The position numbers and the translations under genes are program-made. Positions 15,174-39,539 of a stretch of DNA of 39,539 bases are shown here, in pieces. Under the pieces are notes generated by a model, which worked only from the letters and a program-made list of their open reading frames with translations, ran no database searches and was not told the origin of the DNA. Numbering within the stretch: position 1 is the first letter of the stretch; the number at the start of each line of letters is the position of its first letter. Source of the stretch: a virus. The stretch is from the IMG/VR virus record IMGVR_UViG_3300043436_002696, positions 1-39,539 of that record. One strand, given 5' to 3'.

Positions 15174-18100
15174 TTAACCGATTCTCCTAGAATTACTACT
15201 AATTCTACCACCAACAGCTTTATTAACGTGATGCATAACCATATCCATACCTGCACCGTTAAAGTTCATAACTGGGCTAGAGTTAACATTTGAAGAATTT
15301 GAGTTTACCTGTCCACCACGAGCCATTTTTGCAATAGGTGACGGAGACATTCCTCCACCTGCGGAAGGAACATTGTATTTAGGAGTTGATGGTGCAGATA
15401 TAGTTGGCATAGGAATACTTCCACCACCAGCAAAACCTGGAGCAGATGACATTGCTGGCATTGATCCAACAAGACCTCCCATAGCAAATCCAGCAGCACC
15501 CATATTATTAATTTGATCTAGCTTTGCTTTTCCAATTCTTCTTACAGCTTCTGCTTTAACTATATATTCTCCATTTGATGCCATAATTGGAATTGAATCA
15601 GATGTTCCTGTTCCTGGACCTGATATGGCTCCACCAGATGCCATAGGTGTCCAGCTTCCCCACGGAATATTATCTCCTAGAAGAGTGTCCATTGGCTTAG
15701 TTTTTTGACCAGCAGAAGATAACCAAACATTACCTGCTCCAAGCCTCCACCATAAACCTGAAGAGTCTTGATACCAATTATTAGCATCTCCATTTTTTGG
15801 AATAGGTGGTTTTCCATCAGGAGTACTGGAGTTAGAAGAAGCATTAGAATCTTTTGAACCTTTACCATCTTGATTAGTAATAGGATCACCATCAAGAGTG
15901 TTTTGGTCCTTATTATCAACAGTTCCATACTTAAAGGCTTGAATTGCTTCAGATACTGTAGGGTCTAGCGGTGTCTGTAAAGTTTTAAATAAATCCGTAT
16001 AAGCCTGTGATGTAGAAGGATCAAGATCAAGGCTTTCAAAAACATTTTTAGCAATTTCAGAAGCAGCATTAAGTCTGTCAACTGCATCTGTTGTATCACC
16101 TGTAATAATTTTTAAAGCATCCCCAAGAGATTTTGATGCTGAATCAATTCTTCCTTGAATATCTTTATCTGGAGAAGATATATTTAATTCTTGCATTACT
16201 TGCTGTCCAGATAAACCTGCTGTTTCTGCTGCTTGTACCGCATCTGTGACTGCTTGCTGGTATCCCTTATCTCCAGGAGACATAGCCATAGCTTTTTCAA
16301 GAAGCTTAGTTGCCTTATCTATACCACCAACAGTAGCAGACTGCTTCTTTTGTAAAAACTCTATTTCTGTATTGATATTTGCAATTTCTTGCTCGTGCCT
16401 TGCAGATTCTGCTGCTTTTCTATTATCAATATTTCTTAGGTCTTCATCTAGTTTCTTTTGACCAGCATCAGCAGTTTCTTGTATTGCTTGTATTGAACGG
16501 TCTCTGCCAAACTGATCAGCACTTGATGCTGCATCCATTTGAGCACCAATGAATCCAAATACATCTCCACCAGAAATTGCTTTAAGACCAGATAAACCAG
16601 TCTTTCTTTGATTGGCATAATAGTCTTCTGCTTGCTTTTCTCTTTCAAGTTCTTTAATGTAGTAGTCAGTATTTCTTTGAAGAATATCTTTTTTATCTGC
16701 AATACGTTTTGCTTCATCATCAAGGTTTTTTATTGCTTTTTCATGACGCTTATCTTCAATTTCTAGTTCTTTTTGTTTTGCTTCTATTGCTACAGTAAAA
16801 GATTGTTGGATTGCAGTTTTTAGTAATTCCATTTGAGCCATAGAATCTTTAAGCTGAATATCTACTTCCATATCAATCGCATTTAGTGCTAAGTTTTGTG
16901 CTGCTATACCACCAAGTTTGTCCCAGTCAATAGATTCCCAGCTTTCAGTAAGCATTTTTTCAAATTGGGGACCAGCACCAGCATTTATTACAGATAGAGC
17001 AATAGTTTGCTCTCTTTCACCAAGATTTTTAAAGGTATCACTTTGAACGAACTGTCCAATTTGAGATAAATCTCCAAATCCTTTTTCTTCTGCAATTTTT
17101 GAAAGTTCTTCTTTTGCTTTGTCCCAATCTACTGAATCAAACTGGGCAACTAGCATTCTTAAAGCCTCGTTAGATGCTGTTGGATTATCTGCTGCTATAG
17201 AAAATACAGATTTTATTGTTGCGCCAAGTTGGGCAGCCATTTGAGTTTTTATTGTTTTATCTGCAAGATAACCTCCAAGTACTTGGGCTAGAGGGTTTCT
17301 GTCAAGACCTGTTCCTCTTAGTGCCTTTTTCCAAAACTCATCTCCCTGTACACCAAAAAATTCATTAACCGCATCGGCTCTAAGATCTGAAGATTGTGTT
17401 TTTAGTGGTCCACTTCCAAGTGCTGCACTAGCACCCCTTGCAAGTATGTTCATTCCTGGGACCATAGAGGCTACTCCAAGAGCACCAGACGCAAGATCTT
17501 TTCCACCTACACTTGTAGCAAGATCCCTTCTGTCTTCAAGTATAGTCATTTGGCTCTGGAAAGTTTCAAGTTGTGCTTTTACAGCATCTTTTGAATCCTT
17601 AATATTGTCTAGTGATCCAGAAACCTTAGTAAACGCACCCATTGCTTCTGCTTGACGAGCAATTTCTGCAGTTAACTCCTTGGCATTCTTAGGGTCAAAC
17701 CCTCTTTGAATAAGATTAGAATAAACATTTGTAAGTTGATTTAGTTGCTCTTGTTCTGTTTTTGCTTTACCAATTATTGTAATTAGATCCTGATAGTCTG
17801 TTTTAACAACTTTTTCAAATGCTTTATCGTATGAACCTTTACCCTGTACACCAAAAATTTTCTCTGCTGACTTTCCAAGTTTTTCTGAACCTGCAGTTAA
17901 AGATTTAAGTTCAATTCCTAAAAGTTTTGCACTTTCAGTTGGCTCTCCAAATGCAGCATTTCCAGCCTTCTTAGCATTTTCCATAGTTTTTTGATACATT
18001 TCAATACCTTTATTTACAGCCATTATTCCAACCTGTAGTCCTATCTGCATTGCTGGATTTCCTAAAAAGTTTGCTGCTTTTCCAAGTCCAGCCATTGCTT

Positions 18101-21100
18101 TTCCAAGACCAGATGACATCTTTGAAGGATTTACACCTGCAGCTTTTCCATATATTGGATTTCCTTTTTCATCCATTAAAGGCTGGTTGGTTTGAGGATC
18201 TATTTTCATTTCTAGACCTTGTTTTTGTTTACCTTTTGCTATTAGTGAACTTCCGCCACCCTGTCCAATCATTTGTGTTGCAGTAAGTGCAAGATTCATT
18301 GAAGCTACCCATTTAGATGTACCATTGCTTGTTTCAGATGTAAACTGATTCATTGCAAATCTCATTTGATCTACTGCACCAACCATCATCATCATTCTTC
18401 CAGCAAACTTATCCATTCCTCCACGAGCAACTGGTTGATCAAATACGGGTTCTATTACTTGTTCTTTAGTGGCTGGTACTTGGTCTTCTACAATATCAAG
18501 ACCACTTGAAACTCCACTTGTACCAGCAAAGCCTTTAAGTCTTTTTTGTTGGAAGTTCTTTCCACGCATTAATGCTGTTCCCATAGGATGAACAATCTTG
18601 CCCCTAGCTTCATCTCCTGGAGATGTTACACCTGCAATACCACCGTTCGGTCCGATTGCAAGAAGTTCCTTGCTAGATACTGCAATAGGCTGACCTGTAA
18701 TAGTATTTGCAACCATATCATCAATGCCATTTGACAATACATTACCCATTCCATCAACCTTAACTGTTGCACTTGTTCCTGTTCCACCAGATTGACCCTT
18801 AACTCTTGATATAAATGGTCCAGTATTAGGAGTGTTTCTATCAAAAGACATAAAAGGTTTTTTAGGTTGAGTTGGATTAACAACTCTTCCCATACTATTT
18901 ACCTTCATCAAAGTCAATTTAATAGCTTGCTCGTCAGTCATCGGTTGTTTTTTATGAAGGTAGCATCTTTCACCAAGATTATCAACTGGGTTACTACAAG
19001 GTCTTCCAGAAGCGATTGTTCCACCAGAATCACCACAGGTAGCACGTCTAGAACCTTGATATTCTTTTATTTGTTTTTGATGTTTTCTGTAATTCTTTTC
19101 GTAAGAAACTTCATCTTTTAATGCTTTATAAACTTTTCCTGCAAGCAATCCACCAAGACCAACAGCAAGTGCTGCTGCAGCTATTGGATCTCCTCCAAAA
19201 GTAGGCAAAAACTCAAATCCACCTGCTGCTGATGGGATACTCTGAATGTTTGGCATTACGATTCCTGGTCTAATAGCTCCAGATGGCATTACAATGCCAC
19301 TAGAGGCTGTTCTAGAGCCTTGTGTAGTAGATGTTGGTGCTCCAGTACCCTTTGGATCATATGCTCTTACAGTTGTATTTGGAAGGCTTGAAGGTAATGC
19401 TCTTTGTCCAAGAGTGTCATAGAAATTACCTTGTAGTCTTGCACCCATACCTGCTGCAACAGCGATTGGCATTCCTGGAGAAGTTCTTGATGGGAACATT
19501 CTTGCAAGTGTCATCATGACCTTTGCACCGTTTGCGGTATTTGGATGAACACCATCTGCAATCTTTGTTAATTCTGCTTGAACTAATGGCATAGCTAATC
19601 CAGATGCACTTGCAACTCTTGAGACGGTAGAAGGATTTAATAATCCACCAATATCTTTTCTTGTTCTAAGAGTCTCAAGGAATACATTGTAAACTTGAGA
19701 GTCTTTCATCAAGTTGGCTGCTGACCATACCTTTTCATATATTCCATTAGCATTTGTGGTGGATGGATTAATATGTGCAAGTACATCTTGAATATAGAAT
19801 GATGCAAGTCTATCTGAATCAGGAACACCTGCTGCTCTAAGTGCTTCAACGATTGCCTGATATTCATTTGGCTTTGTAGCCCAATTAGGAATACCCTGTA
19901 GCACACCTGCATATGCTTTAGGTGCTGCTGCTTTCTTTGCCCAAGAAGTTGTTTCAGTTGCATATCCATTTATACGACCACCTGATTGCATTCCAAGATA
20001 TGATTGCTCTAACCAAGACATCTTGTCTTTAGTGAATGGCTCTCTTGAGTTTATTGTGTCTGTACCAGAGCTATATCCAAGAGACTTCTTTGTTTTTGGA
20101 TCTTTATAAGCAACATAGCTACTTCTCTTCTGCTTTAAAATTTTCTTTCCGTCTTTAGTAAATCCAGTTACTTCTCCGTTTTTACCTAATAGAGGCTTCC
20201 AGCCATCTCTAATTAATCCTTCATCAGATATTCTTGACCTAGCATCATAAAGTTTTCCAGACTGTAAATATTCTTGAAATCTTTTATTAATTGCAGGTAT
20301 AGTTTTTGCTTGATTATAAACGTCTTGGTCTCCAATTTTTCCTTTAAGCATTCCAACTTTATTAGCAATGCTAGATTGAATATTTTGAGCAAGTCCACCT
20401 GGATCCTTTTCTTCATAAATTCCAAGAACTTGAGCCATTCTTTCTTCTGCAATATCTGCTCTAAAATATTCTGCAAGTTGTTTTGGATCCACATCTTTAT
20501 TTTGTGCAAGCCTACTGTTTATTTTTGTAGGAATAGATAAGCCAAATGGAAGAGTAACAAGACCCTGACCACTTCTAACTGGATTAACAATATGTGCAAA
20601 TGCATATCCGCTTGGAACAGTTCCTCCAAACCTACCAGTCTTATCTGCATATCCATTAACTCTTCCACCTGATTGGTATCCTTGAATATGGAATATCGGT
20701 TTCTTTGTTTGAGTATCAGATGAGACACCAGTAATTCTTCCAGATGCTGAAGACAGAATTGTTTCTTGCATAGCGTCAAGTCCCATTACTCCAGTATTAA
20801 TACCCTTTGTGTTTTTACCAGCAATAAAATCAAAGAATGCTCCAGAGTACCCTGCTGGTCCTACCTTCAATCCGCTTGCTATTGCTTTTTCTAAAGATCC
20901 AGACTGACCAACAGCACTATATGGAGCAAGGGCATTTTCCATAAATCTACTAATAGGATATGAGTTTTGAACAGAATACTGTTCACCAATAGGGTTTTCA
21001 GAGAAGGAGCTAAGACCTCTAAAGTTTAATTCTTTTCCAATAATAGATGAATAGTCGCCAGACTGAATAGCAGATAAAAGCATAATTTGTTGTTCTGCAG

Positions 21101-24100
21101 AAAGTTCTTTTGAAAGTCCTGGATTTAGAACAGTTCCTCTACCAAGCCTAGTTCCTGCAGGAACAGGTGCGGATTGTTTTGTTAACTCTTGGTATTTATA
21201 AAGATTACTTCTAACACCCTTCATTCCACCTGATGTCCATTCACCAAGAACCTTTGATTTATCAGCATAGCCCTTAATGCGACCACCCATTTGCTTACCT
21301 TGCATGTGAATAATTGGTTGACGTGATTGGATATCTGAAGATACCCCAGTAATTGATCCCTGTGCTCCATATGTAAGGATTTCATTAATACCATCTGGTA
21401 CATCAGATACCCATCCTTCATTATATTTTGGATACGGTGCTCCTGTTGATGGGTCTCCCATCGAAATATCCCTACCTTGAGTGTTTGGTCCTGCTGTAAA
21501 ATCATACATAACTGGGGAAGCACCATATTTTGATTCTTTTCCAGTAGCCCTTTGACGTTCAATGTCATCAAAGAACCTACCGCTTTCAGTATCTCTACTA
21601 TGCACACCTCTGTATAACTTGTTGTATGCGACCTGTGAAAATTCACTTACTCCCTTAACTCCTCTAGGACCATACTGTTCACCCATAAAGTTTGAAGCAA
21701 AAGATGCAAAATCACTAAATGAAACTTCCATTCCATAAAGACTTCCATAATCACCAGTTTGAATAGCAGTAAGCATTGCAAGTTGGGTTTCTTTAGACAT
21801 CTCTCCAGACATTCCTGGATTAAGAACAGAGCCTCTCATCATTCGTGTTCCCTCTGGAACAGAACGCATTACGCCAAGAAGTTGCTGATATCTTTCTGCG
21901 TCAAACTTTTCAGAATCGGTCCAGCGACCCTTTACATTCTTTCTTTGTCTAAAGTAATCAAGTTCTCCAGAAATCCACTTGTAAACAGTTTCATATTCTT
22001 TGTCTGTCTTTTGGAACGGTGCTCTAAATGATTCATCTTGATGGCTTTGTATTCTACCGCCCATTTGCTTCTTTAAAGGTATACTCTTTTGTTTTAAAAA
22101 TTCTTTTTTCCAGTTTGGCAAAGGATCTATTTTTTCTACTGTTTCATCTTGCCCTCTTTTATTTGGCTTGAAGCCTTTAACAAACTTAAGAGAGGCTGTT
22201 ATAGCCGCTTCCGCAGTTTGTTTAGTTGAAATATTTCGCTGAACACCTTCTTCTGGATCTTTACCATCCAAAAAGTCTTGCATAGTATATTCATTAGCAT
22301 CAGATAGTTGTAATTTTTCTTCTTCTGAGAATGAGATTAGACCCATTCTTTCTGCTGCTAAAAGCATAGGTGCACTAAAAGTAGAATAACTTCCTTCGTT
22401 CTTAATTGCCCTTATAGATAAGTCTCCACCTTGTTCTTGAACCATTTTTCTTGCTTGTACCATTAATTCAACTATTGCTGTTTGAGGAGCACCACTAGAG
22501 AATGCCTTATCTATTAACCATCCATTTTTAACAACATCACTTGGTCTAAGAGTTACTGATGCTCCAGCACCCTTTCCATAGTCTCGTATTAATTCAAAAT
22601 AGTCATGTCCTTCTGGTTCATAACCGCTATATCCTATTTTGTAGGTTTCAAAGGCTTCACTTAAATCTTTTGATTCTTCAGCATGACTTTGTACTCTACC
22701 ACCCTTTTGCATAAGATCAATAATGTAATTTTTTGTACCCATATCTTGGCGGATACCAGAAATAGTTCCAGATGGATTATTTAATACCCATTCTTTTTCA
22801 TCAACAGGGCTTCCCATAACTTCTTGAACCATAGCTTTTGAAGATATGTTAAATCCAGTTTGTCCTCTAGCATTTGCAAGTCTAAATATAACTGGAAGCA
22901 TTTCCATACTTGCTAGTTGTCTATCTGCTGCCTTCTTTGAATTAGTATTTGAAGGGTTTGTCCAAGACTCAATAAACTTAGAATAGTTTGCAATATCTGG
23001 AATAGTAGAAAATGATTGCATATCTGACCATTGGATTTTCTTTCCCATAGCCTTTTCAAACATTCCATGCTTGATATACATTAGAAGTTCTCTAGCACCC
23101 ACACCTGAAAATTCATTAGCACCCTTTTCTTTAAGAACCGTTCCTCTAAATAAAGGAATATTTTCAGATATCGGAGACATACTATTAAGCATTTGCTGGC
23201 GATGACCTTCCATATCAAGTCTTTTCATAACACCAGTTCCAGCTCTAAACTGATTTGTATTATGTCCAGCTATCCAGTCTGCATATGCCTGTTGTTGTGG
23301 ATCATTAATACTTCTTGCAATATTAGAAGTTTTTGATCCACCTTGATTAGCACCAAAAGTTGTACTATTTAATGTAGAAAATACACCTGCTTCTTGTTCT
23401 GTTTTAAAAGGATACCCATAAACATTGCGAGATCCACCTACTCCTGCTCTGCCCATTGCTTGATAAGAAACTTGAGGAAGTGGACCAACAAAGGGATTTT
23501 CATCACCAAGACGGTATCTCAAACTAGGTTCATATTTTTCGTTAAGATATGGATTCATATCGTCTCTCATTAATACAGGTAATCTTCCACCTTGAGAGGA
23601 AATTCTATCATAGTCAGCCTTAAGCATAACTTTTCCATTAGCAAGAACTAAATGTTTTGATTGGTCAAGTTTAAATCCCTCGTATGGATAGGTTGCATCA
23701 TAATTAAATTCTGTTGATGTATTTGCATATCCTGGCATTCTTCCACCTTTTTGAAAGCGTGGTGCAGATTGAAAATTAATTTGATCTAATGTTCCAGAAT
23801 ATTTAGCTGCTGCTTTTTTATTTACAACATATTCTCCTGGCTCAAGCATTGCAGGAACTTTATCTCCATCTCCAGAACCTGGAACCCAAGCAGAACCACC
23901 TCTTTGCATTTGTGCTGTTGGAGTAGATGCTGGAAGGGAAGGCATCTGTCTATTTACAAATGCTGGATTTAAACTAATTGCGTCTACAAGGTTTTGTCTA
24001 TAAATACCAAGTGCTTGGTTAAGTCTTTCAACACTTGATCTTTCTGTGTCAAAAGATCTTGCTAATTGCTCTGTTGCTTTCTGAGCCATAATTTGAGTAT

Positions 24101-25889
24101 CAGTAAGCATCTCAAACTTTTGAACTGGTATACCTGCCATACGTCTACCAAGGTTAACCATACCCATAGCACCCTTACCAATATAGCCAAGGAAGTTAGA
24201 GAAAATACCAACCATCATAATAATTGGACCAGCGATAGCAGTTAAACCTGTTGCTACCTTAATAAATGACTTAACTGGCTTTGGAAGATTTTGAAAAAAC
24301 TCAATAGCTTTTTGAATTTTTCCAGTTACGTTTTCAAGAATTGGGGTAATTGACTCAGTAATGGACTGACCTATAGAAATAAACTGTGCTTTAATTGCCT
24401 CAATAGCTCTTTGAAAACGCTTTGAAGAACTATTCATCAAAGTATCCATTTCCTGATATGCAGTTGCTGCAAGTTCTTTACTTGACTTACCCATCAAACC
24501 AAGAACTGCATTTGTCTGTGAAGCACTTGCGTTTAAGTTATCAAACAAAGCAGAGAGGCGAGCAAACTGGTACTTACCAAAAACATTTTCAATAACTTGT
24601 GCTTTTCCAAAATCATCTAGAAGTTCTAGCTGTTGCTGAAAAGCCATAATTGTTGGCATAAGCTGTCCACGATTTGCTTGAACTATTGCATTAATATCAA
24701 TTCCATACTGCTTTGCGGTTGCAGAAGCCTGTTTTGTTGGATTAATTAAAGATGCCATACCAGACTTTAAAGCATTAGCACCTTCAGCTGCTGAGATACC
24801 ACCTTCTTTTAGTGCTACCATCAAAAGCGATAAGTCTTTAACGTCACCACCCAAAGACTTAATAACTGGTCCAGCTTTTGGAATTGCAGTTGTTAAGTCC
24901 TGTAAAGAAAGGGAAGTTTGGTTTTCCACTGCGTTAAGGAAGTTAACAGATTCAGCAAGTTCATCAGTACTTATCTTAAATGCGTTTTGTAGAGACAGGG
25001 TTGTTTTCATAGCGTCTTGGTTTGAAACATCACCAAGAACAGCAAGACGAGTTGTTTCTCTTAGTGATGCAAGAAGCTTTTGTCCTTCTAAGCCAGTTGC
25101 TGCAAGATCAGCAGCTAGGGAGGCTGTTTCTTTTGCTGCAATACCAAATGACTTTGAAAATTCTATAGCAAGATTACGAACATCATTAACCATTTGATCT
25201 GTAGCATCTGATGTACTATTCATTAAGTCACTTCCATAAACTTTCTGGAAGCGTGTAAGTTCTGCATCTACTTCACGGAAAATTTTAGATACTGTATTTC
25301 CATAAATAGTTAAAGGAACGGTAAGACCAACGGTAATCTGACGACCAGCCCACTGAGTATTCTTACCAAAATTAATTAAATGTGTTGTTCCATCTTGAAC
25401 AAGGTTATTGAATATAGACCACTGTTTTTGAGATACAGCAAGTTGAGTATTAAAATCTTTTAAGTTAATAGTTGCAGGGGTAATCATCATACCCATTTGC
25501 TTTCCATCCATGCCCTTGCCAAGATTTACAAGCTGAGACATTTCTCTGGATACTTCACGAACAGCAAGTTTATGTGCATTAGATGACTTGCTAAATGCAC
25601 CAATAGCTTCTTGTGCATATTGCTTTAGAGTAAGTTTTTGCTTTAGAAGGGATTGCCCAAACTGATCAACAGAATCAGTAAGTTCAACCATCTTGGCATT
25701 CCAGCCACCAATTTTTCCAATATCAGATGCAAATGCACCTGCAAGGTTTGACTTTAATCCTACGGACTGCTTGTCAAGATTTTGTAATGTATTATTTAAT
25801 AAGTTTGCTTCAGCAGTGAGCTTTTGCATTTGCCCAATAACTGGACCAAAGTTGGCTGAATAATTAAATTGAGCATTAATATTAGCCAT
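15174..25889 (-). CDS. Tape measure protein with embedded ADP-ribosyltransferase-like modules
   Basis: A 3571-residue tape measure setting tail length and ejected at infection. Residues about 100-620 are a TP901-type core (conserved A-A-D-L-A-A-T-G and G-I-S-A-A-E-G-A-N-A-L-K stretches) with a hydrophobic segment near 545-575. Near 670 is the L-E-P-G-E-Y-V-V-N-K-K motif common in tape measures; a relative (S-N-G-E-Y-I-V-K) recurs near 3440. Residues 717-1972 are an unusual block cut by six Q-x-G-G-R linkers (Arg 717, 1065, 1279, 1537, 1743, 1972), with three ART-like segments. A C/C/C/H zinc-binding-like motif lies at 2285-2312, hydrophobic glycine-rich segments near 2230-2250, and a long coiled coil at about 3020-3190. 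ATG overlaps the GT chaperone stop by eight bases. Several modules are unrecognised. Confidence 0.93.
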   Translation of the reverse strand: MANINAQFNYSANFGPVIGQMQKLTAEANLLNNTLQNLDKQSVGLKSNLAGAFASDIGKIGGWNAKMVELTDSVDQFGQSLLKQKLTLKQYAQEAIGAFSKSSNAHKLAVREVSREMSQLVNLGKGMDGKQMGMMITPATINLKDFNTQLAVSQKQWSIFNNLVQDGTTHLINFGKNTQWAGRQITVGLTVPLTIYGNTVSKIFREVDAELTRFQKVYGSDLMNSTSDATDQMVNDVRNLAIEFSKSFGIAAKETASLAADLAATGLEGQKLLASLRETTRLAVLGDVSNQDAMKTTLSLQNAFKISTDELAESVNFLNAVENQTSLSLQDLTTAIPKAGPVIKSLGGDVKDLSLLMVALKEGGISAAEGANALKSGMASLINPTKQASATAKQYGIDINAIVQANRGQLMPTIMAFQQQLELLDDFGKAQVIENVFGKYQFARLSALFDNLNASASQTNAVLGLMGKSSKELAATAYQEMDTLMNSSSKRFQRAIEAIKAQFISIGQSITESITPILENVTGKIQKAIEFFQNLPKPVKSFIKVATGLTAIAGPIIMMVGIFSNFLGYIGKGAMGMVNLGRRMAGIPVQKFEMLTDTQIMAQKATEQLARSFDTERSSVERLNQALGIYRQNLVDAISLNPAFVNRQMPSLPASTPTAQMQRGGSAWVPGSGDGDKVPAMLEPGEYVVNKKAAAKYSGTLDQINFQSAPRFQKGGRMPGYANTSTEFNYDATYPYEGFKLDQSKHLVLANGKVMLKADYDRISSQGGRLPVLMRDDMNPYLNEKYEPSLRYRLGDENPFVGPLPQVSYQAMGRAGVGGSRNVYGYPFKTEQEAGVFSTLNSTTFGANQGGSKTSNIARSINDPQQQAYADWIAGHNTNQFRAGTGVMKRLDMEGHRQQMLNSMSPISENIPLFRGTVLKEKGANEFSGVGARELLMYIKHGMFEKAMGKKIQWSDMQSFSTIPDIANYSKFIESWTNPSNTNSKKAADRQLASMEMLPVIFRLANARGQTGFNISSKAMVQEVMGSPVDEKEWVLNNPSGTISGIRQDMGTKNYIIDLMQKGGRVQSHAEESKDLSEAFETYKIGYSGYEPEGHDYFELIRDYGKGAGASVTLRPSDVVKNGWLIDKAFSSGAPQTAIVELMVQARKMVQEQGGDLSIRAIKNEGSYSTFSAPMLLAAERMGLISFSEEEKLQLSDANEYTMQDFLDGKDPEEGVQRNISTKQTAEAAITASLKFVKGFKPNKRGQDETVEKIDPLPNWKKEFLKQKSIPLKKQMGGRIQSHQDESFRAPFQKTDKEYETVYKWISGELDYFRQRKNVKGRWTDSEKFDAERYQQLLGVMRSVPEGTRMMRGSVLNPGMSGEMSKETQLAMLTAIQTGDYGSLYGMEVSFSDFASFASNFMGEQYGPRGVKGVSEFSQVAYNKLYRGVHSRDTESGRFFDDIERQRATGKESKYGASPVMYDFTAGPNTQGRDISMGDPSTGAPYPKYNEGWVSDVPDGINEILTYGAQGSITGVSSDIQSRQPIIHMQGKQMGGRIKGYADKSKVLGEWTSGGMKGVRSNLYKYQELTKQSAPVPAGTRLGRGTVLNPGLSKELSAEQQIMLLSAIQSGDYSSIIGKELNFRGLSSFSENPIGEQYSVQNSYPISRFMENALAPYSAVGQSGSLEKAIASGLKVGPAGYSGAFFDFIAGKNTKGINTGVMGLDAMQETILSSASGRITGVSSDTQTKKPIFHIQGYQSGGRVNGYADKTGRFGGTVPSGYAFAHIVNPVRSGQGLVTLPFGLSIPTKINSRLAQNKDVDPKQLAEYFRADIAEERMAQVLGIYEEKDPGGLAQNIQSSIANKVGMLKGKIGDQDVYNQAKTIPAINKRFQEYLQSGKLYDARSRISDEGLIRDGWKPLLGKNGEVTGFTKDGKKILKQKRSSYVAYKDPKTKKSLGYSSGTDTINSREPFTKDKMSWLEQSYLGMQSGGRINGYATETTSWAKKAAAPKAYAGVLQGIPNWATKPNEYQAIVEALRAAGVPDSDRLASFYIQDVLAHINPSTTNANGIYEKVWSAANLMKDSQVYNVFLETLRTRKDIGGLLNPSTVSRVASASGLAMPLVQAELTKIADGVHPNTANGAKVMMTLARMFPSRTSPGMPIAVAAGMGARLQGNFYDTLGQRALPSSLPNTTVRAYDPKGTGAPTSTTQGSRTASSGIVMPSGAIRPGIVMPNIQSIPSAAGGFEFLPTFGGDPIAAAALAVGLGGLLAGKVYKALKDEVSYEKNYRKHQKQIKEYQGSRRATCGDSGGTIASGRPCSNPVDNLGERCYLHKKQPMTDEQAIKLTLMKVNSMGRVVNPTQPKKPFMSFDRNTPNTGPFISRVKGQSGGTGTSATVKVDGMGNVLSNGIDDMVANTITGQPIAVSSKELLAIGPNGGIAGVTSPGDEARGKIVHPMGTALMRGKNFQQKRLKGFAGTSGVSSGLDIVEDQVPATKEQVIEPVFDQPVARGGMDKFAGRMMMMVGAVDQMRFAMNQFTSETSNGTSKWVASMNLALTATQMIGQGGGSSLIAKGKQKQGLEMKIDPQTNQPLMDEKGNPIYGKAAGVNPSKMSSGLGKAMAGLGKAANFLGNPAMQIGLQVGIMAVNKGIEMYQKTMENAKKAGNAAFGEPTESAKLLGIELKSLTAGSEKLGKSAEKIFGVQGKGSYDKAFEKVVKTDYQDLITIIGKAKTEQEQLNQLTNVYSNLIQRGFDPKNAKELTAEIARQAEAMGAFTKVSGSLDNIKDSKDAVKAQLETFQSQMTILEDRRDLATSVGGKDLASGALGVASMVPGMNILARGASAALGSGPLKTQSSDLRADAVNEFFGVQGDEFWKKALRGTGLDRNPLAQVLGGYLADKTIKTQMAAQLGATIKSVFSIAADNPTASNEALRMLVAQFDSVDWDKAKEELSKIAEEKGFGDLSQIGQFVQSDTFKNLGEREQTIALSVINAGAGPQFEKMLTESWESIDWDKLGGIAAQNLALNAIDMEVDIQLKDSMAQMELLKTAIQQSFTVAIEAKQKELEIEDKRHEKAIKNLDDEAKRIADKKDILQRNTDYYIKELEREKQAEDYYANQRKTGLSGLKAISGGDVFGFIGAQMDAASSADQFGRDRSIQAIQETADAGQKKLDEDLRNIDNRKAAESARHEQEIANINTEIEFLQKKQSATVGGIDKATKLLEKAMAMSPGDKGYQQAVTDAVQAAETAGLSGQQVMQELNISSPDKDIQGRIDSASKSLGDALKIITGDTTDAVDRLNAASEIAKNVFESLDLDPSTSQAYTDLFKTLQTPLDPTVSEAIQAFKYGTVDNKDQNTLDGDPITNQDGKGSKDSNASSNSSTPDGKPPIPKNGDANNWYQDSSGLWWRLGAGNVWLSSAGQKTKPMDTLLGDNIPWGSWTPMASGGAISGPGTGTSDSIPIMASNGEYIVKAEAVRRIGKAKLDQINNMGAAGFAMGGLVGSMPAMSSAPGFAGGGSIPMPTISAPSTPKYNVPSAGGGMSPSPIAKMARGGQVNSNSSNVNSSPVMNFNGAGMDMVMHHVNKAVGGRISSNSRRIG
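18954..19037 (-). other. Zinc-binding-like C-C-C-H motif in the tape measure
   Basis: Cys2285, Cys2298, Cys2309 and His2312 follow the pattern C-x12-C-x10-C-x2-H with S-G-R-P-C-S-N in the middle. This resembles a small treble-clef-like motif (C..T..G..C.N....C..H) that I recall from many phage and actinobacterial proteins. It could bind one zinc ion. It lies after the modular block and a hydrophobic glycine-rich segment, before the coiled-coil end. Confidence 0.5.
20715..21161 (-). other. ART-like module 3 of the tape measure (catalytic Glu-minus-2 missing)
   Basis: Residues about 1577-1725. The Arg motif is L-G-R-G-T-V-L (Arg1584), the Ser motif S-S-F-S-E (Ser1628, Ser1630) and the Glu motif M-Q-E-T-I-L (Glu1709). 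It aligns with module 2 along its whole length (N-P-G-L/M-S, I-Q-S/T-G-D-Y, G-E-Q-Y, F-x-A-G-x-N-T, I-T-G-V-S-S-D). The residue two before the glutamate is Met rather than Glu or Gln, so transferase activity is doubtful. NAD-glycohydrolase or a purely structural role is possible. Confidence 0.5.
21330..21857 (-). other. ART-like module 2 of the tape measure (degenerate)
   Basis: Residues about 1345-1520. Arg motif M-M-R-G-S-V-L (Arg1352), Ser motif A-S-F-A-S (Ser1396, Ser1399, with Ala where modules 1 and 3 have Ser) and Glu motif I-N-E-I-L (Glu1503). The spacing between the three motifs is close to that of module 3, and the two are clear paralogues. The altered Ser motif and missing ExE suggest an inactive or substrate-divergent copy. 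Confidence 0.5.
22755..23177 (-). other. ART-like module 1 of the tape measure (full R-S-ExE signature)
   Basis: Residues about 905-1045. It carries P-L-F-R-G (Arg915), S-F-S-T (Ser961-Thr962) and D-E-K-E-W-V-L (Glu1031-x-Glu1033), in the order and spacing of the R-S-E class of mono-ADP-ribosyltransferases (about 46 residues Arg to Ser, 70 Ser to Glu). In that family Arg binds NAD, the Ser motif shapes the pocket and the ExE glutamates catalyse transfer. No homology search was possible; the call rests on motif order, spacing and the repeat of the pattern in modules 2 and 3. Confidence 0.55.
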
Positions 25890-31823: not shown

Positions 31824-32396
31824 CTAATTTAAGTATTGCGAGGAACTGAGGAAGCGTCCCCCCCATACAGAATCTGACTTCTGTATAGTTGTTTCTGCGG
31901 AACTCTCAAGTTCCCCAGACTTTTTTACAGCGGTATCGTTTTCTACAGATTCCAATCTTCCATTAATTGTTTGTACTGCATTTACGATATCCGCCAAACC
32001 TTTGTTGATCTCTTCTAAACGAGAATCATTTTCTACAAGCTTATCGGTTAAAGCTTTTGTTACTTCTGCAACAGTGTTTACAACACCATTAACTGCAGCT
32101 GCATTTGTTTCGCCACTCTTTGTAAGAGCCTCGCCAACAAAATTTTTGATTTCACTAAGAGTCTTTTCAAGGTCAGTCGCCTCACCATTATCGGTGGAAG
32201 CGTCATCTGCAGATCCCTCTGTATCTACGGATGTTTCGACTGTTTCTTCTGCTACTTCAACTTCATCAGACTTTGCAATTTCTTCTTCTGCTGGAGCTTC
32301 TTCAGCTTCAACAATTTCATCAACTACAACTTCTTCTGCTACTTCTACAATTTCTTCAACTGTAGCGTCTTCTGCAACTTCGTTATTTTCAGTCAT
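31824..32396 (-). CDS. Nested in-frame scaffolding protein (internal start)
   Basis: An internal ATG (32396), in frame with the protease gene at codon 403, is preceded by AAGGAGGTG at 32410-32402, one of the best ribosome binding sites in the window, followed by five bases. It would make a separate 190-residue protein sharing the protease's C-terminus: an acidic Glu/Val/Ala-rich half (403-480) then a helical coiled-coil half with D-K-L-V-E-N-D-S-R-L-E-E-I. This mirrors lambda, where scaffold Nu3 is made from an internal start in protease gene C. The product would be an internal scaffold that guides capsid assembly and is then digested by the protease. Confidence 0.75.
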   Translation of the reverse strand: MTENNEVAEDATVEEIVEVAEEVVVDEIVEAEEAPAEEEIAKSDEVEVAEETVETSVDTEGSADDASTDNGEATDLEKTLSEIKNFVGEALTKSGETNAAAVNGVVNTVAEVTKALTDKLVENDSRLEEINKGLADIVNAVQTINGRLESVENDTAVKKSGELESSAETTIQKSDSVWGGRFLSSSQYLN

Positions 32397-33602
32397 ATCA
32401 ACACCTCCTTCATTTATTTGGGTGGCAACTAACTCTACGTCATTTGCCTCATTCACTACTGTGTTAGGTAGAGAAACTTCTGTTTGTACGCCAATAGATT
32501 TAAGGACTTTAACTGTCCAAGATCTAAGTGTACTCATTCTATGTCCTACAACTGTTTTAGATGGCTTCCAAGAGTCTCCGTCTTTTTCGTAAACTCTAAT
32601 AGCCACCGCTGGGTCTTCTGGTGTTCCTGTAATTGTAACACTAGAATTTGGTACTTTAATTTTACCATTAGTTACTACTCTTGTTACTTTACCTCTTGCT
32701 GTTCCACCTGAAGAGCCCCACTGAACAAAATCTCCAGTGGAATATTCTCCTGCTTTTTTAATATATTTCTTTTTCTTTTTAGGATCTTCTTCAGTCTGAA
32801 TATCTGAAAATCTTGGATTTTGCTTAGGATATTTCTTTGGAACATCATCACTTGTAATCGTTCCAGGATTAACTGCTTTATGCATTTCAATTATCTTTGA
32901 CATTGCATTTTCAACATTTGCTTTTGTAATTTCGTCAATCCATCCAATAGATGAAAGCTCTGAACTGCAAGAAGCACACGAATATTTTTCTTCATTTGAA
33001 AGATACGCCATTTCTTCTTGTTCACACCAGAATACATTTTGGATATTGGACTTGGAAAACATACCGTCAACAACATCACCATCTAGTGTTTTTTGAATAG
33101 AAAAGATATTGGCAAACTGATTAGCAGGTGAATCAACAAGTGATAGTTCTACTAAATCATATTCTTTAATAACACGAACTGTTTTATTTGATTCTTCATC
33201 AAGTTCGTTATCTGTGTCTTTAATTGCACCGCCGATTGAAAAACCAGTGAGTGTACCATCAAGAACCATCTCCCAGATGTCTTGAGCACCCTTAGAAACA
33301 TAAGCATCTACAAAAACTCCTGTGTACTGCTTCTTTGTTTCTGGGTCAAAAAATGTGTCTGATCTAAAAGAAACAACCTTTCCTGCTGGAATAGGTTGAT
33401 GCATCAATCTTACGTTACCACGAAAGTTTGCAAAAGCTTTTTCTGATGCTTCTGGAAGCACTCTATCGCCTTGTTTATCAATATTATCAAGTGTTGCAAA
33501 GCCAGAAACAATACGCTTTTCTTCATCAATCTTAGAAATAGGCATGGTCAAGTTGACGCTGTTACCATTCATAGAAAGCGATGCTTTTTGTAAATTAATC
33601 AT
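31824..33602 (-). CDS. Prohead protease fused to a Tudor-like domain and an acidic scaffold
   Basis: 592 residues in three parts. Residues 15-170 are a U35/S78-type prohead protease: L-M-H-Q-P with likely catalytic His68, T-G-F-S-I-G-G with likely Ser122, and V-E-L-S-L-V-D-S-P-A-N at 151-161. Residues 190-215 hold Cys193, Cys209 and Cys212, a possible partial zinc site. Residues about 286-362 (G-D-F-V-Q-W-G-S-S-G-G-T-A-R-G-K-V) look like the HVA1/DUF2945 Tudor-type domain seen in some actinophage proteases. From 403 an acidic low-complexity stretch and a coiled coil form a scaffold-like tail. It cleaves scaffold and capsid N-termini during head maturation. The ATG has no good ribosome binding site but a TATAAT nine bases upstream; M11 is an alternative start. 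Confidence 0.88.
   Translation of the reverse strand: MINLQKASLSMNGNSVNLTMPISKIDEEKRIVSGFATLDNIDKQGDRVLPEASEKAFANFRGNVRLMHQPIPAGKVVSFRSDTFFDPETKKQYTGVFVDAYVSKGAQDIWEMVLDGTLTGFSIGGAIKDTDNELDEESNKTVRVIKEYDLVELSLVDSPANQFANIFSIQKTLDGDVVDGMFSKSNIQNVFWCEQEEMAYLSNEEKYSCASCSSELSSIGWIDEITKANVENAMSKIIEMHKAVNPGTITSDDVPKKYPKQNPRFSDIQTEEDPKKKKKYIKKAGEYSTGDFVQWGSSGGTARGKVTRVVTNGKIKVPNSSVTITGTPEDPAVAIRVYEKDGDSWKPSKTVVGHRMSTLRSWTVKVLKSIGVQTEVSLPNTVVNEANDVELVATQINEGGVDMTENNEVAEDATVEEIVEVAEEVVVDEIVEAEEAPAEEEIAKSDEVEVAEETVETSVDTEGSADDASTDNGEATDLEKTLSEIKNFVGEALTKSGETNAAAVNGVVNTVAEVTKALTDKLVENDSRLEEINKGLADIVNAVQTINGRLESVENDTAVKKSGELESSAETTIQKSDSVWGGRFLSSSQYLN
32402..32410 (-). promoter_or_regulatory. Internal ribosome binding site deciding the scaffold start
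   Basis: AAGGAGGTG embedded in protease codons for N-E-G-G-V, five bases before the in-frame ATG at 32396. It is stronger than the start signal of the full-length protease, which predicts more scaffold than protease, the stoichiometry capsid assembly needs. Confidence 0.75.
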
Positions 33603-35606: not shown

Positions 35607-38600
35607 TTACTCTGTTATTGCATACTGCGGTGCAGACTTATAAGTTACTTTTCCTACCGCTGTTGTACTGGAAGCACTTGTAGGGGTAAGCTTAGCATCA
35701 GAATATAGATACTTTTTATTTCCAAACTCATAAATTTCATTTTCTGATAATTCTTCTTTAGTAAAAGTTACAGAATAAGTTACTGCTTTACTTGATAAGA
35801 TATTTGTAGCATCATTTAAGTCAGATACTGTATACAAGAAATATTTGCTTGATGTGTCATTAATTACTAGTATTTTTTCTCCAGGCTTAATAAATTTTCC
35901 ACCAGAAATTATGAGCTTTTGTCTCTCTGTCAAGTTTTCATAATGAACCTTGTCTCTAAAATATATATCAGTTGCTTTGGCAATCTCTGAAGTTAAATTA
36001 GCAACCATTGCAATTTTTAGGTATGGCTCTTCAGCAATAAAATATGCTTCTTGACCAACAGCTTTAATTAATCCATAGCCCCTATTAGTTTTAGTTGCTG
36101 GAGGAACATAGTTCTTATTTTTAACACCAAACTTAATGGTTACAACATTTCCACTCACAGCTGAAATTACTGCTCCAGGATCAAAGTAGTTCTCTGAGGT
36201 TGCATTTCTATTCTTAACCATATCTGCAACCTGAACACCTGATGCACTCTTTAAAGTTACTTTTGTTGACCAAACATCAGATTTTCTTTCACGATTTATA
36301 GTTCCAGAGCTACCTTTAAAAGTTTGCACCGTTCTTATGTTTCTTACTGAGTCCAAACTAGAAACTGTGCCAAGAATTGTTTTGTTATCTTTGTCAACTC
36401 TAACAGAACCAGCCATCAAATATTTTGTGTCTGTTACAGGTATAACTTTTTGTGAAACAACAGCTTTAGCTGCCACTTTTTTTGTGAGTAAGGCATTTCC
36501 ACTAGATGCACCATAAGAAATTGAAAGTGTTTCTGTTTCAGCTCCACCAATTAATTCATTATATATAACTCCAGAAGATAACAAATAATCACATTTTACT
36601 GAGGTATAGTTTTCTACTGTAACATTTTGTTGATCAATTAGCTTAACCTCTGTTGATTTAGTTGACTTAAAGTTACTTGGAATATTACCAATAAAATTAT
36701 TATATAAATTATCTAGCGAACCAAGTCCATTATTTGTAGTAAGTTTTTTATCAAATATCATTAATTGATCTATATAAACACTTGTTACAAAAGCAGATTC
36801 TGGGTCTCCAAGAATTATTTCAACTGGTGATCCTTCAACTATTGAGAAAGGATTTGTAAAAACAAGTGTTATCATTTGCCATTCATTTGTTTTTACTGGA
36901 TTATCTATTGCATGATATACTGCTCCATTAACATATGTTGTAGCATCTGCAAGGGTTTTTGCTCCAGAAAAATTATTCACACTAAATTGTTTGTTTCCAA
37001 CTTTTATAATCTTTAAAGAGTTTCCCGAACCTGAACCTTTTTCAATATAAGCCATAAAGGATACTGTGCTAATTCCAGATGTTAATTGCATAACACCTGC
37101 TGTACCGTCTGGTAACTGTGTTGTAGCATTTGCTTCTGTAACATAAGATCCATTTGGAGAATAACCTGTAAGTGTTATGTTGTTTCCAGATGAAACTGAA
37201 ACAACTTTTGAGTCACATGAAAATGGGGTGGTTCCTTGTGTTCCTTGAATTTCAGAAACGGATACTGTATCTCCAACAATAAACGGATTATCGTCTAATG
37301 TATATACTCCACCAGAAACATTTGTTATTTGTGCAAACTTTTGAACACTGGTAAAGTCATGACTAATCTTTGCATATGATTCTTTTAATTTAAGACCAGA
37401 CTTGTATCCATTATAAAAGAATGGCATTTCAATAAGGTCTGGGATATTACATTCATTAGACTTTAAATATATCTTTGCTGGATTACCGCCAGGACTTGAG
37501 TTATTTAAAACATAATCTGCACCATCATTGTTTAACGCATATGAAGCAACTCTAAAATAGTTCAAGTACGGTGGCTGGTCTGTTAAGTCATCTGTATAAA
37601 AATTAAATGTAAAAGACAGTGCATCTACTGGGTTTGTTGTAGAATTTTCGGTCTGTGTGGTTTTTTTATTTAGCCAAGATCCTGAAGTAATAACTCTTTC
37701 AAGATTTTCATTTGTATAAATATTTGTTGATAACACTTCAGATCCGCCAGAATATTTCTTTTCATCTAAAGACATGAATAATGAATGAGAATAAGCTGGA
37801 TGTCCAACCTCAACACGACAAGCACCAGTTACTTCAGAAAGCGGTGGGCATAAAAACTGTTGATCTACATCAATAATAGCCTGTGCATATGACTTAATCT
37901 TAAATCTACGCTCTTCTGTGTTTGGAATTGCCGTGTAGTAATGTTTAAAGTTTTCTCCCTCTATTTCACCATATGTATCATATAGCGATGCATTATCTTT
38001 ATGAATACCAACAATTTTTAATAATTTAGAATCTGATATTGCATTACTAACTTCAAGCTTTCTAGCATCTTCACCATCAAACCATGTGTTATCTGAACCA
38101 AATCTTGCATAAGCAGAAGGTATTTCAGGAAGTGTTAGTGGTGTAACTACTTGGCTACCATTAGTTAAAAAGAAAACATTAGATGTTCCAGTAATATCTT
38201 TATAGTATCCAACATAAAATTCTGTAGATAGTGTGTGACCTTCTTTTAAGGTTGTTACCGTTCCATTAATATCTACCTTTATTTTATTAACTGTTGACTC
38301 TGTTATTGTATAAAACTCGATATAATTTTGTGAGGACTTAGACCCAATGCTTAATAAAACTTTTTTAGTTAAATCATATGTTCCGTTTTTAAACTTTGCT
38401 GCCCAACCACCAATAGATTCTGGAATAATTGAATTAATGTTTTCAATTTCTAAATAAGAACCGTTAAGAAAAGTATATGTATCCAATGCATCTAATTTGG
38501 TAAACAAGGAAGTATCTAAAATAGATGTATTTTCTGAAAAATATGTTCTTGGCTCTTGTTTGTTTTTTATAGTAAGCAGTCCATTGTTAATTAAACAGTT

Positions 38601-39539
38601 ATTTGCTTCTGTAATACTCCAAGCAGTTCCTGGACCCATATCATATTTATTAATTTCTTTATGACCATCCATAGAAAAATTATAAAAAACTCCACCATTA
38701 GAGTTAACTATTTCGGACGGTAGACTGTAACCTGTTCCATAAATAAAATGCTTTAATGCTTTTTCTCTTTGAAGTTGATAAGAATATAAAGATATACAGT
38801 CATACTCAACTATTGCTACTAAATCTGGTTTTGAGAAATAAAAATACTCATCATCTGGATCATATGCTGGAAACAAAGAATCTGGATTAGTAATTCTTTT
38901 TGTTCTACTAACACCATTTACAATAAGAGTAATTGCATCTGAAGAATAGATAGCAACAATATGAAGTGGCTTATTAGTTGTATCAATAGGGGTAGACACT
39001 TCATAATACTTTGTTGCAATTCCTAGCCTAAATACAATATAATCATTTTTAACATATATAGATGTTGCATAGTCGTCTAATGCAGAATTATCCACATCTT
39101 TTTTATACATAAGAGTTGACATTTCATTACTAGATGAACTTAGTTTTACCCAAAACTCTAAAGATGAAGAATTTCTGGAATCTTTTAAAGACATCTTATC
39201 TAAAGAAGGTACTCTAATATATCCAGAATCACTTGTTATTTTAATAGATTGCTTTCCACCATAAATTAAAGGAAGCCCAGTTGCTATAACATTTGAATAC
39301 GTTCCAGTATAATAGGTTCTAGTAGTGCTATTGGTGTAAGTTTTATACAAAAAAGAATCTGGTCTTACTATTAAATTATATTTTCCACCAGTTCCAGCAA
39401 CATTTGTAAAACCTGTACCAGAGGCAGTAAAGGTATATGCTCCAGAAGTTCCTCCAACAGCAGTAACAGTAACAACCTGATTATAGTTACCACCAGAAAC
39501 ACCTTGAATGTTTATTATTTGACCAATTACAAATATCTG
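35607..39539 (-). CDS. Giant LamG/jelly-roll adhesin-like structural protein (5' end outside window)
   Basis: At least 1310 residues, open to the right edge, so the true start lies beyond 39539. An apparent TTG start at 39350 is internal: the frame upstream encodes a beta module with repeated G-G and V-T-V-T like those in the tail fibre. Three LamG/concanavalin-like jelly-roll segments are visible at about 39240-38890 (I-R-V-P-S-L, F-W-V-K-L, H-I-V-A-I-Y), 38490-37990 (Y-L-E-I-E-N, G-W-A-A-K-F) and 37110-36680 (V-S-F-M-A-Y-I-E-K, W-Q-M-I-T-L-V-F). Such folds bind glycans or form surface decorations. No protease or lysin motif is visible. Its place before the portal, not in the tail-tip cluster, is odd: it may be a head or neck fibre or a displaced receptor-binding protein. 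Stop is 18 bases before the next start. Confidence 0.8.
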   Translation of the reverse strand, partial: QIFVIGQIINIQGVSGGNYNQVVTVTAVGGTSGAYTFTASGTGFTNVAGTGGKYNLIVRPDSFLYKTYTNSTTRTYYTGTYSNVIATGLPLIYGGKQSIKITSDSGYIRVPSLDKMSLKDSRNSSSLEFWVKLSSSSNEMSTLMYKKDVDNSALDDYATSIYVKNDYIVFRLGIATKYYEVSTPIDTTNKPLHIVAIYSSDAITLIVNGVSRTKRITNPDSLFPAYDPDDEYFYFSKPDLVAIVEYDCISLYSYQLQREKALKHFIYGTGYSLPSEIVNSNGGVFYNFSMDGHKEINKYDMGPGTAWSITEANNCLINNGLLTIKNKQEPRTYFSENTSILDTSLFTKLDALDTYTFLNGSYLEIENINSIIPESIGGWAAKFKNGTYDLTKKVLLSIGSKSSQNYIEFYTITESTVNKIKVDINGTVTTLKEGHTLSTEFYVGYYKDITGTSNVFFLTNGSQVVTPLTLPEIPSAYARFGSDNTWFDGEDARKLEVSNAISDSKLLKIVGIHKDNASLYDTYGEIEGENFKHYYTAIPNTEERRFKIKSYAQAIIDVDQQFLCPPLSEVTGACRVEVGHPAYSHSLFMSLDEKKYSGGSEVLSTNIYTNENLERVITSGSWLNKKTTQTENSTTNPVDALSFTFNFYTDDLTDQPPYLNYFRVASYALNNDGADYVLNNSSPGGNPAKIYLKSNECNIPDLIEMPFFYNGYKSGLKLKESYAKISHDFTSVQKFAQITNVSGGVYTLDDNPFIVGDTVSVSEIQGTQGTTPFSCDSKVVSVSSGNNITLTGYSPNGSYVTEANATTQLPDGTAGVMQLTSGISTVSFMAYIEKGSGSGNSLKIIKVGNKQFSVNNFSGAKTLADATTYVNGAVYHAIDNPVKTNEWQMITLVFTNPFSIVEGSPVEIILGDPESAFVTSVYIDQLMIFDKKLTTNNGLGSLDNLYNNFIGNIPSNFKSTKSTEVKLIDQQNVTVENYTSVKCDYLLSSGVIYNELIGGAETETLSISYGASSGNALLTKKVAAKAVVSQKVIPVTDTKYLMAGSVRVDKDNKTILGTVSSLDSVRNIRTVQTFKGSSGTINRERKSDVWSTKVTLKSASGVQVADMVKNRNATSENYFDPGAVISAVSGNVVTIKFGVKNKNYVPPATKTNRGYGLIKAVGQEAYFIAEEPYLKIAMVANLTSEIAKATDIYFRDKVHYENLTERQKLIISGGKFIKPGEKILVINDTSSKYFLYTVSDLNDATNILSSKAVTYSVTFTKEELSENEIYEFGNKKYLYSDAKLTPTSASSTTAVGKVTYKSAPQYAITE

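Follow-up and report, generated by a model that had tools for sequence, protein, structure and literature searches.

An uncultured virus in IMG/VR (record IMGVR_UViG_3300043436_002696, positions 1 to 39,539; this whole stretch of 39,539 nucleotides, with a G+C content of 36%, is called the window below) encodes a tape measure protein (TMP) of 3571 amino acids whose middle part carries three related modules, the first of which, judged from its predicted structure, is very probably an ADP-ribosyltransferase (ART). The modules lie among several cassettes that vary between related phages, and we consider it probable, with some reserve, that the TMP also serves as a carrier of exchangeable effectors and would release ARTs into the host at DNA entry. 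The gene (15174..25889; minus strand, as are all features of the TMP given below) was identified by a match to Pfam PF10145 PhageMin_Tail (expectation value (E) 5.9e-29), by matches to 15 tape-measure families of PHROGs (best E 1.8e-107) and by its head and tail gene neighbours.

Three homologous modules with ordered Arg, Ser and Glu motifs

A first-pass annotation of the window had described three repeats in the TMP with Arg, Ser and Glu motifs in this order (R-S-E), and we found the repeats and every residue that it named in place. Its choice of Ser residues held for S1396 in module 2 and S1628 in module 3 but not for S961 in module 1, which is the third residue of the S-F-S motif; alignment of the modules places the first Ser, S959, in the shared column. 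The Ser motif of module 2 is indeed altered (SFA), at the third and less constrained position. The R-to-S spacing is 44 residues in each module (915-959, 1352-1396 and 1584-1628), and the S-to-E spacing is 74, 107 and 81 residues in modules 1, 2 and 3, respectively. As annotated, only module 1 has the complete R-S-ExE signature, with E1031 present, the equivalent positions being I1501 in module 2 and M1707 in module 3. Module 1 spans residues 840-1062 (22704..23372), with the codon of the predicted catalytic R915 at 23145..23147, that of the conserved S959 at 23013..23015 and the ExE motif E1031-K1032-E1033 at 22791..22799. The ART-like cassettes of module 2 (residues 1277-1534; 21288..22061; R1352, S1396, E1503, no ExE) and module 3 (residues 1535-1740; 20670..21287; R1584, S1628, E1709, no ExE) were assigned using hhalign.

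The ordered pattern RG[TS][VIL]L..S[FT][SATG]..E occurs three times in the real TMP; among 20,000 shuffles that kept the composition of the protein, it occurred once in 15 and twice in none. In profile comparisons (hhalign), module 1 matched module 3 with a probability of 94.7 (E 6e-8) and module 2 with a probability of 80 (E 1e-5), and modules 2 and 3 matched each other with a probability of 99.6 (E 2e-24); by these comparisons, the three modules are homologous to each other.

To follow the motifs across relatives, we aligned 17 modules from the window and related loci (designated L001 and so on), with pairwise identity down to approximately 25%. Approximately 20 columns are invariant, among them R915, G916, S959, F960 and E1033, and the ordered R, S and E residues (R915/S959/E1033, R1352/S1396/E1503 and R1584/S1628/E1709) are invariant in all 17 modules; a loss of all three in close homologues, which the annotation had named as evidence against an ART, was not seen. 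E1031-K1032-E1033 (E192, K193 and E194) is invariant in the eight module-1 homologues. The ratio of nonsynonymous to synonymous substitution rates (dN/dS, Nei-Gojobori) was 0.14-0.42 for module 1, 0.07-0.23 for module 2 and 0.30 for module 3, compared with approximately 0.07-0.12 for the TMP N terminus. All three modules are under purifying selection, and none is decaying. A more distant relative, L055, whose TMP N terminus is 77% identical to that of the window, also has a clear ART-like cassette in which R, S and E are present and which runs off the end of the contig. The same TMP has two weaker ART-like cassettes at residues 842-946 and 990-1069, one of which has an ExE-like NEGETVLPGG and no clear Arg motif.

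Predicted fold of module 1

AlphaFold modelling of module 1 from the 17-row alignment gave a predicted local distance difference test score (pLDDT) of 64.5 and a predicted template modelling score (pTM) of 0.62, the core being better predicted than the N-terminal part. The model places R915 on its first core strand (model residues 74-81), S959 in the next strand pair (on strand 118-122) and E1033 at the beginning of a later strand (194-198), which is the strand order of R, S and E expected of an ART. A Foldseek search of the Protein Data Bank (PDB) with the model returned 62 matches at E<=0.001, and the best 50 of the 62 were all R-S-E ARTs (probability 0.99-1.00, best E 3.2e-5), including C3, C2-I, VIP2, iota, Certhrax and Vis, in line with what the annotation had proposed. 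Viral structure models matched by module 1 were likewise mainly ARTs (best E 6e-6), comprising VIP2 proteins, Alt-type RNA polymerase ARTs and head-morphogenesis or head-associated proteins. The fold search with module 1 and the invariant residues support the annotation's reading of the modules as ART-like.

Modules 2 and 3 appear ART-like by homology to module 1, and we claim no acceptor type for them. Within the R-S-E class, a Glu or Gln at the second position ahead of the catalytic Glu is a mark of arginine- and asparagine-type transferases and need not be present in every member. No relative of the modules was found by tblastn against 50,697 phage records, nor in bacterial genomes by a genome-collection scan with an ART profile, a scan that depends on short conserved peptides. 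A match to PF19804 (DUF6287) at residues 1603-1618 was dropped as a short local match of 16 residues below the cut-off.

Exchange of cassettes between related phages

The annotation, which described the three predicted ARTs, overlooked a wider pattern, in which they are three of several exchangeable cassettes. GGR-type linkers at residues 715, 1063, 1277, 1535, 1741 and 1970 mark the ends of the cassette zone (residues 715-1969; 19983..23747) and split it into segments; examples are GGRVQSHAEES, GGRIKGYADKS and GGRVNGYADKT. By inspection, linkers of this kind are absent from the corresponding part of the TMP of Gilson, a cultured relative. Among close relatives, whose TMP N termini are 88-95% identical, the linkers are kept and the content between them differs: L016 lacks modules 1 and 3, L002 and L003 lack modules 2 and 3, and L004 and L005 lack module 3. 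Cassettes are, by these sequence comparisons, gained, lost and replaced among close relatives.

Comparison of the window with L001 resolves such changes along the gene. Over residues 1-660 the two differ at 0.15-0.40 of third codon positions, over residues 661-1500 at 0-0.13 and across module 3 at approximately 0.13-0.27; between the linkers at 1741 and 1970 the two proteins are unrelated, and from approximately residue 2041 the difference is 0.07 again. Synonymous divergence is 0.084 in module 1 versus 0.50 in the N terminus. The lower third-position and synonymous divergence indicates that the middle of the TMP was exchanged more recently than its frame. The clearest replacement begins and finishes at linkers, and the pattern suggests that the linkers are swap points for cassettes between related phages.

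The window has two further cassettes. The cassette between ARTs 1 and 2 (residues 1063-1276; 22062..22703) has relatives in L001, L003 and L055; it had no Pfam or PDB match, and PHROGs gave a weak match to phrog_3819 (E 0.0011). An acetyltransferase reading of this cassette, made by eye, was backed by none of the searches. The cassette with a FAHIV motif (residues 1741-1969; 19983..20669), delimited by alignment, had no convincing match in searches including Pfam, PDB and PHROGs. In L001 it is replaced by a cassette that starts with a cytidylyltransferase-family domain, as does a cassette of L003 (phrog_3041, E 1.9e-24; motif GRMNPPHAGH), so that the L001 TMP carries this domain alongside three ARTs. 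The cytidylyltransferase/NMNAT-like domain occupies L001:5647-6270 (TMP residues 1750-1957) and L003:4316-4940, and could in principle act on the metabolism of nicotinamide adenine dinucleotide (NAD).

A kinase-like GNADTHxGNxGI signature marks a cassette in L003, L004 and L016, and a further kinase-like family (A16), with invariant K, E, D, N and D, is present in L002:7945-8943 and L003:3320-4315 and in 37 TMPs of related loci whose N termini are 50-67% identical (L058, L059, L062, L064, L076 and 32 more). The evidence for the kinase-like nature of A16 consists of its motifs and one weak match to HipA_2 (E 0.022), and tblastn found no match to the family in cultured phages. In 41 TMP cassette zones scanned against Pfam and NCBIfam, no convincing enzyme family was identified.

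A proposed mechanism and its alternatives

In siphophages, the TMP is housed in the lumen of the tail and departs together with the DNA. We propose that the three predicted ART domains, strung between glycine-rich linkers in the middle of the TMP, would be threaded through the tail tube in extended form, exit together with the DNA or shortly ahead of it and regain their fold inside the cell. The best candidate for ADP-ribosylation of host proteins is module 1, with its complete R-S-ExE; it would act in the first minutes of infection, like T4 Alt, which is carried in the head. In modules 2 and 3 the NAD-site residues are kept and the ExE residue linked to arginine transfer is missing; these modules may therefore modify other acceptors or hydrolyse NAD. 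Related phages would trade ARTs, cytidylyltransferase, kinase-like and other domains at the linkers.

Several observations weigh against this proposal. Query-normalised template modelling scores (TM-scores) of module 1 to ARTs are just 0.33-0.42, with root-mean-square deviations of 8-12 Å, so the overall superposition is loose, and at its pLDDT the model is in part of low confidence. No ART family was matched at the sequence level in Pfam, in phmmer and profile searches of the PDB or in PHROGs, and hhalign of the modules to T4 ModA and ModB gave no significant match. AlphaFold on residues 1063-1740, which hold modules 2 and 3, reached a pLDDT of 33 and that model was not used, so the assignment of these two modules rests on homology. 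Passage through the tail tube, arrival in the cytoplasm, activity and targets are what we infer from the arrangement, and no protease domain able to free the cassettes was found.

The same enzymes might instead act late in infection in the phage-producing cell, within newly made TMP, and never be injected. The TMP is made in that cell before assembly, and our data do not distinguish between the two times of action. We nevertheless think this rather unlikely: with lysis approaching, a transferase would gain less than at entry, the task could be left to a small gene of its own without burdening the tail, and placement in a virion protein, recurring with several enzyme types, fits delivery better.

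It is also unlikely that the predicted ARTs are remnants without catalytic activity, retained as spacers that add length or as structural elements of the tail. The missing ExE of modules 2 and 3 would suit such a role, as would the setting of tail length by TMP length in other phages: deletion of a 114-residue motif (a peptidoglycan hydrolase) from the TM4 TMP shortens the tail by approximately 20 nm, compared with 17 nm expected for 114 residues at approximately 0.15 nm per residue (PMC1796659), so inserts can count in the ruler. Dead spacers would, however, hardly keep R, S and E in 17 of 17 modules at identities as low as approximately 25%, or E1031-K-E1033 in all module-1 homologues, and a strict ruler would hardly tolerate a zone that differs by hundreds of residues between close relatives. 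At approximately 0.15 nm per residue, the 1255-residue zone computes to approximately 187 nm of extra tail, and near-sibling phages with TMPs of 3571 and 3021 residues are predicted to differ by approximately 80 nm; either the tails are very long and variable, or the cassettes are not counted by the ruler.

A role within or at the envelope of the cell, or in superinfection exclusion of rival phages, with the TMP staying in the membrane, seems highly improbable, as the NAD and nucleoside triphosphates needed by ARTs and nucleotidyltransferases are cytoplasmic and the cassettes lie in mid-protein. Ejected TMPs are nevertheless described as inserting into the cell membrane (PMC13277306). That the R, S and E motifs are a chance resemblance in modules that are not ARTs, as the absent sequence family match and the low TM-scores would allow, is just as improbable given the shuffling result, the ART identity of all the best 50 of the 62 PDB matches, the ART-dominated viral matches and an invariance that falls on exactly R, S and E.

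If the TMP does deliver effectors, a gene annotated just as 'tape measure' would conceal enzymes for host takeover and counter-defence, and effectors could be sought in the variable middle of long TMPs. Known phage effectors that act at entry travel in the head (T4 Alt) or are other internal proteins; the cassettes suggest that here the tail itself carries a changeable weapon set into the bacterium. The system makes testable both the carriage of enzymes through a siphophage tail inside the ruler and the counting of inserts towards tail length. Extending delivery by the TMP to a large group of uncultured actinobacteriophages is more tentative, a matter on which we are nearly evenly divided with doubt slightly ahead: their siphophage TMPs may form a general recombining effector-delivery scaffold, in which ARTs, kinases and nucleotidyltransferases would be stored extended, swapped at linkers and released ahead of or with the genome.

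Genomic context and host

The conserved N-terminal part of the TMP (residues 1-715; 23745..25889) is homologous over residues approximately 140-600 to TMPs of Streptomyces and Rhodococcus phages, with approximately 36-38% identity to those of the Streptomyces phages Gilson and Karimac over residues approximately 170-600. Among the products of the surrounding genes are a portal, a prohead protease, a tail tube protein and a large protein that bears a chaperone domain (Peptidase_S74); both an N-terminal TMP domain and a position in the tail cluster, as expected of a siphophage TMP, are present, and the tail tube gene is close. WhiB is characteristic of Actinobacteria and their phages, and its gene is present in 10 of 17 related records, which points to actinobacterial hosts. 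The window probably derives from an uncultured phage infecting Actinobacteria. Its capsid protein is approximately 41% identical to capsids of the same Streptomyces phage group.

Three further features were noted. An open reading frame upstream of the portal gene (35607-39539; 1310 residues, open at the window edge) matches Laminin_G_3 (lectin-like; E 2e-6). The prohead protease gene (31824-33602) has additional C-terminal sequence with a match to Hva1_TUDOR (E 3e-7). Outside the cassette zone, TMP residues 2285-2313 (window approximately 18951-19037) form a small Cys/His cluster resembling a zinc finger, CGDSGGTIASGRPCSNPVDNLGERCYLH, which is kept in L010 and whose segment is absent from L001.

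Comparison with known systems

The T4 proteins Alt, ModA and ModB are phage ARTs of the R-S-E class, and RNA polymerase is among the host proteins that they modify. Module 1 would share their R-S-ExE logic, and by eye its P-L-F/Y-R-G and E-K-E-W resemble L-Y-R-G (R73) and E-Q-E-W (171-174) of ModB. Alt is virion-borne and injected (PMC5512222); it travels in the head, whereas the window has three predicted ARTs within the ruler of the tail. In the MuF-VIP2 fusions of actinobacteriophages, for example, in Microbacterium phage Percival (PMC7302621), a structural protein of the virion is likewise joined to an ART, and VIP2 is among the best viral fold matches of module 1. Those fusions place a single ART on a MuF-like head protein, in contrast to a TMP with three predicted ARTs in a cassette array; Pfam found PhageMin_Tail and no MuF domain in the window TMP.

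Polyvalent proteins are multi-domain proteins predicted to enter the host with the DNA, which combine ARTs, sometimes in multiple copies, with GNATs and other effectors and in which peptidase domains are pervasive; their description by Iyer et al. (2017) does not mention tape measure proteins (PMC5512222). The window TMP, with its three predicted ARTs and unassigned cassettes, and its relatives with cytidylyltransferase and kinase-like domains may likewise place several distinct effector enzymes on one injected polypeptide. The ARTs of polyvalent proteins belong to the H-Y-D clade (PMC5512222), unlike the R-S-E modules. Enzymatic domains that differ between phages are also found inside the TMPs of mycobacteriophages, as hydrolase motifs such as mt3 of TM4 and the Rpf-like motif 1 (PMC1796659); those open the cell wall, whereas the window domains would work within the cytoplasm of the host cell.

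The contractile injection systems of Streptomyces, with their Sle1-type and Tme effectors, likewise pair a TMP-related protein with an interchangeable effector domain in a tail-like tube of actinobacteria (PMC13277306). These systems are bacterial and carry one C-terminal domain, as opposed to an internal string in a phage, and the consulted sections of that paper describe no ART. We found no report of ARTs inside tape measure proteins in the open-access literature. Virion-borne ARTs, polyvalent effectors and TMP-embedded hydrolases are thus known, and what the window appears to add is ARTs carried in the TMP.

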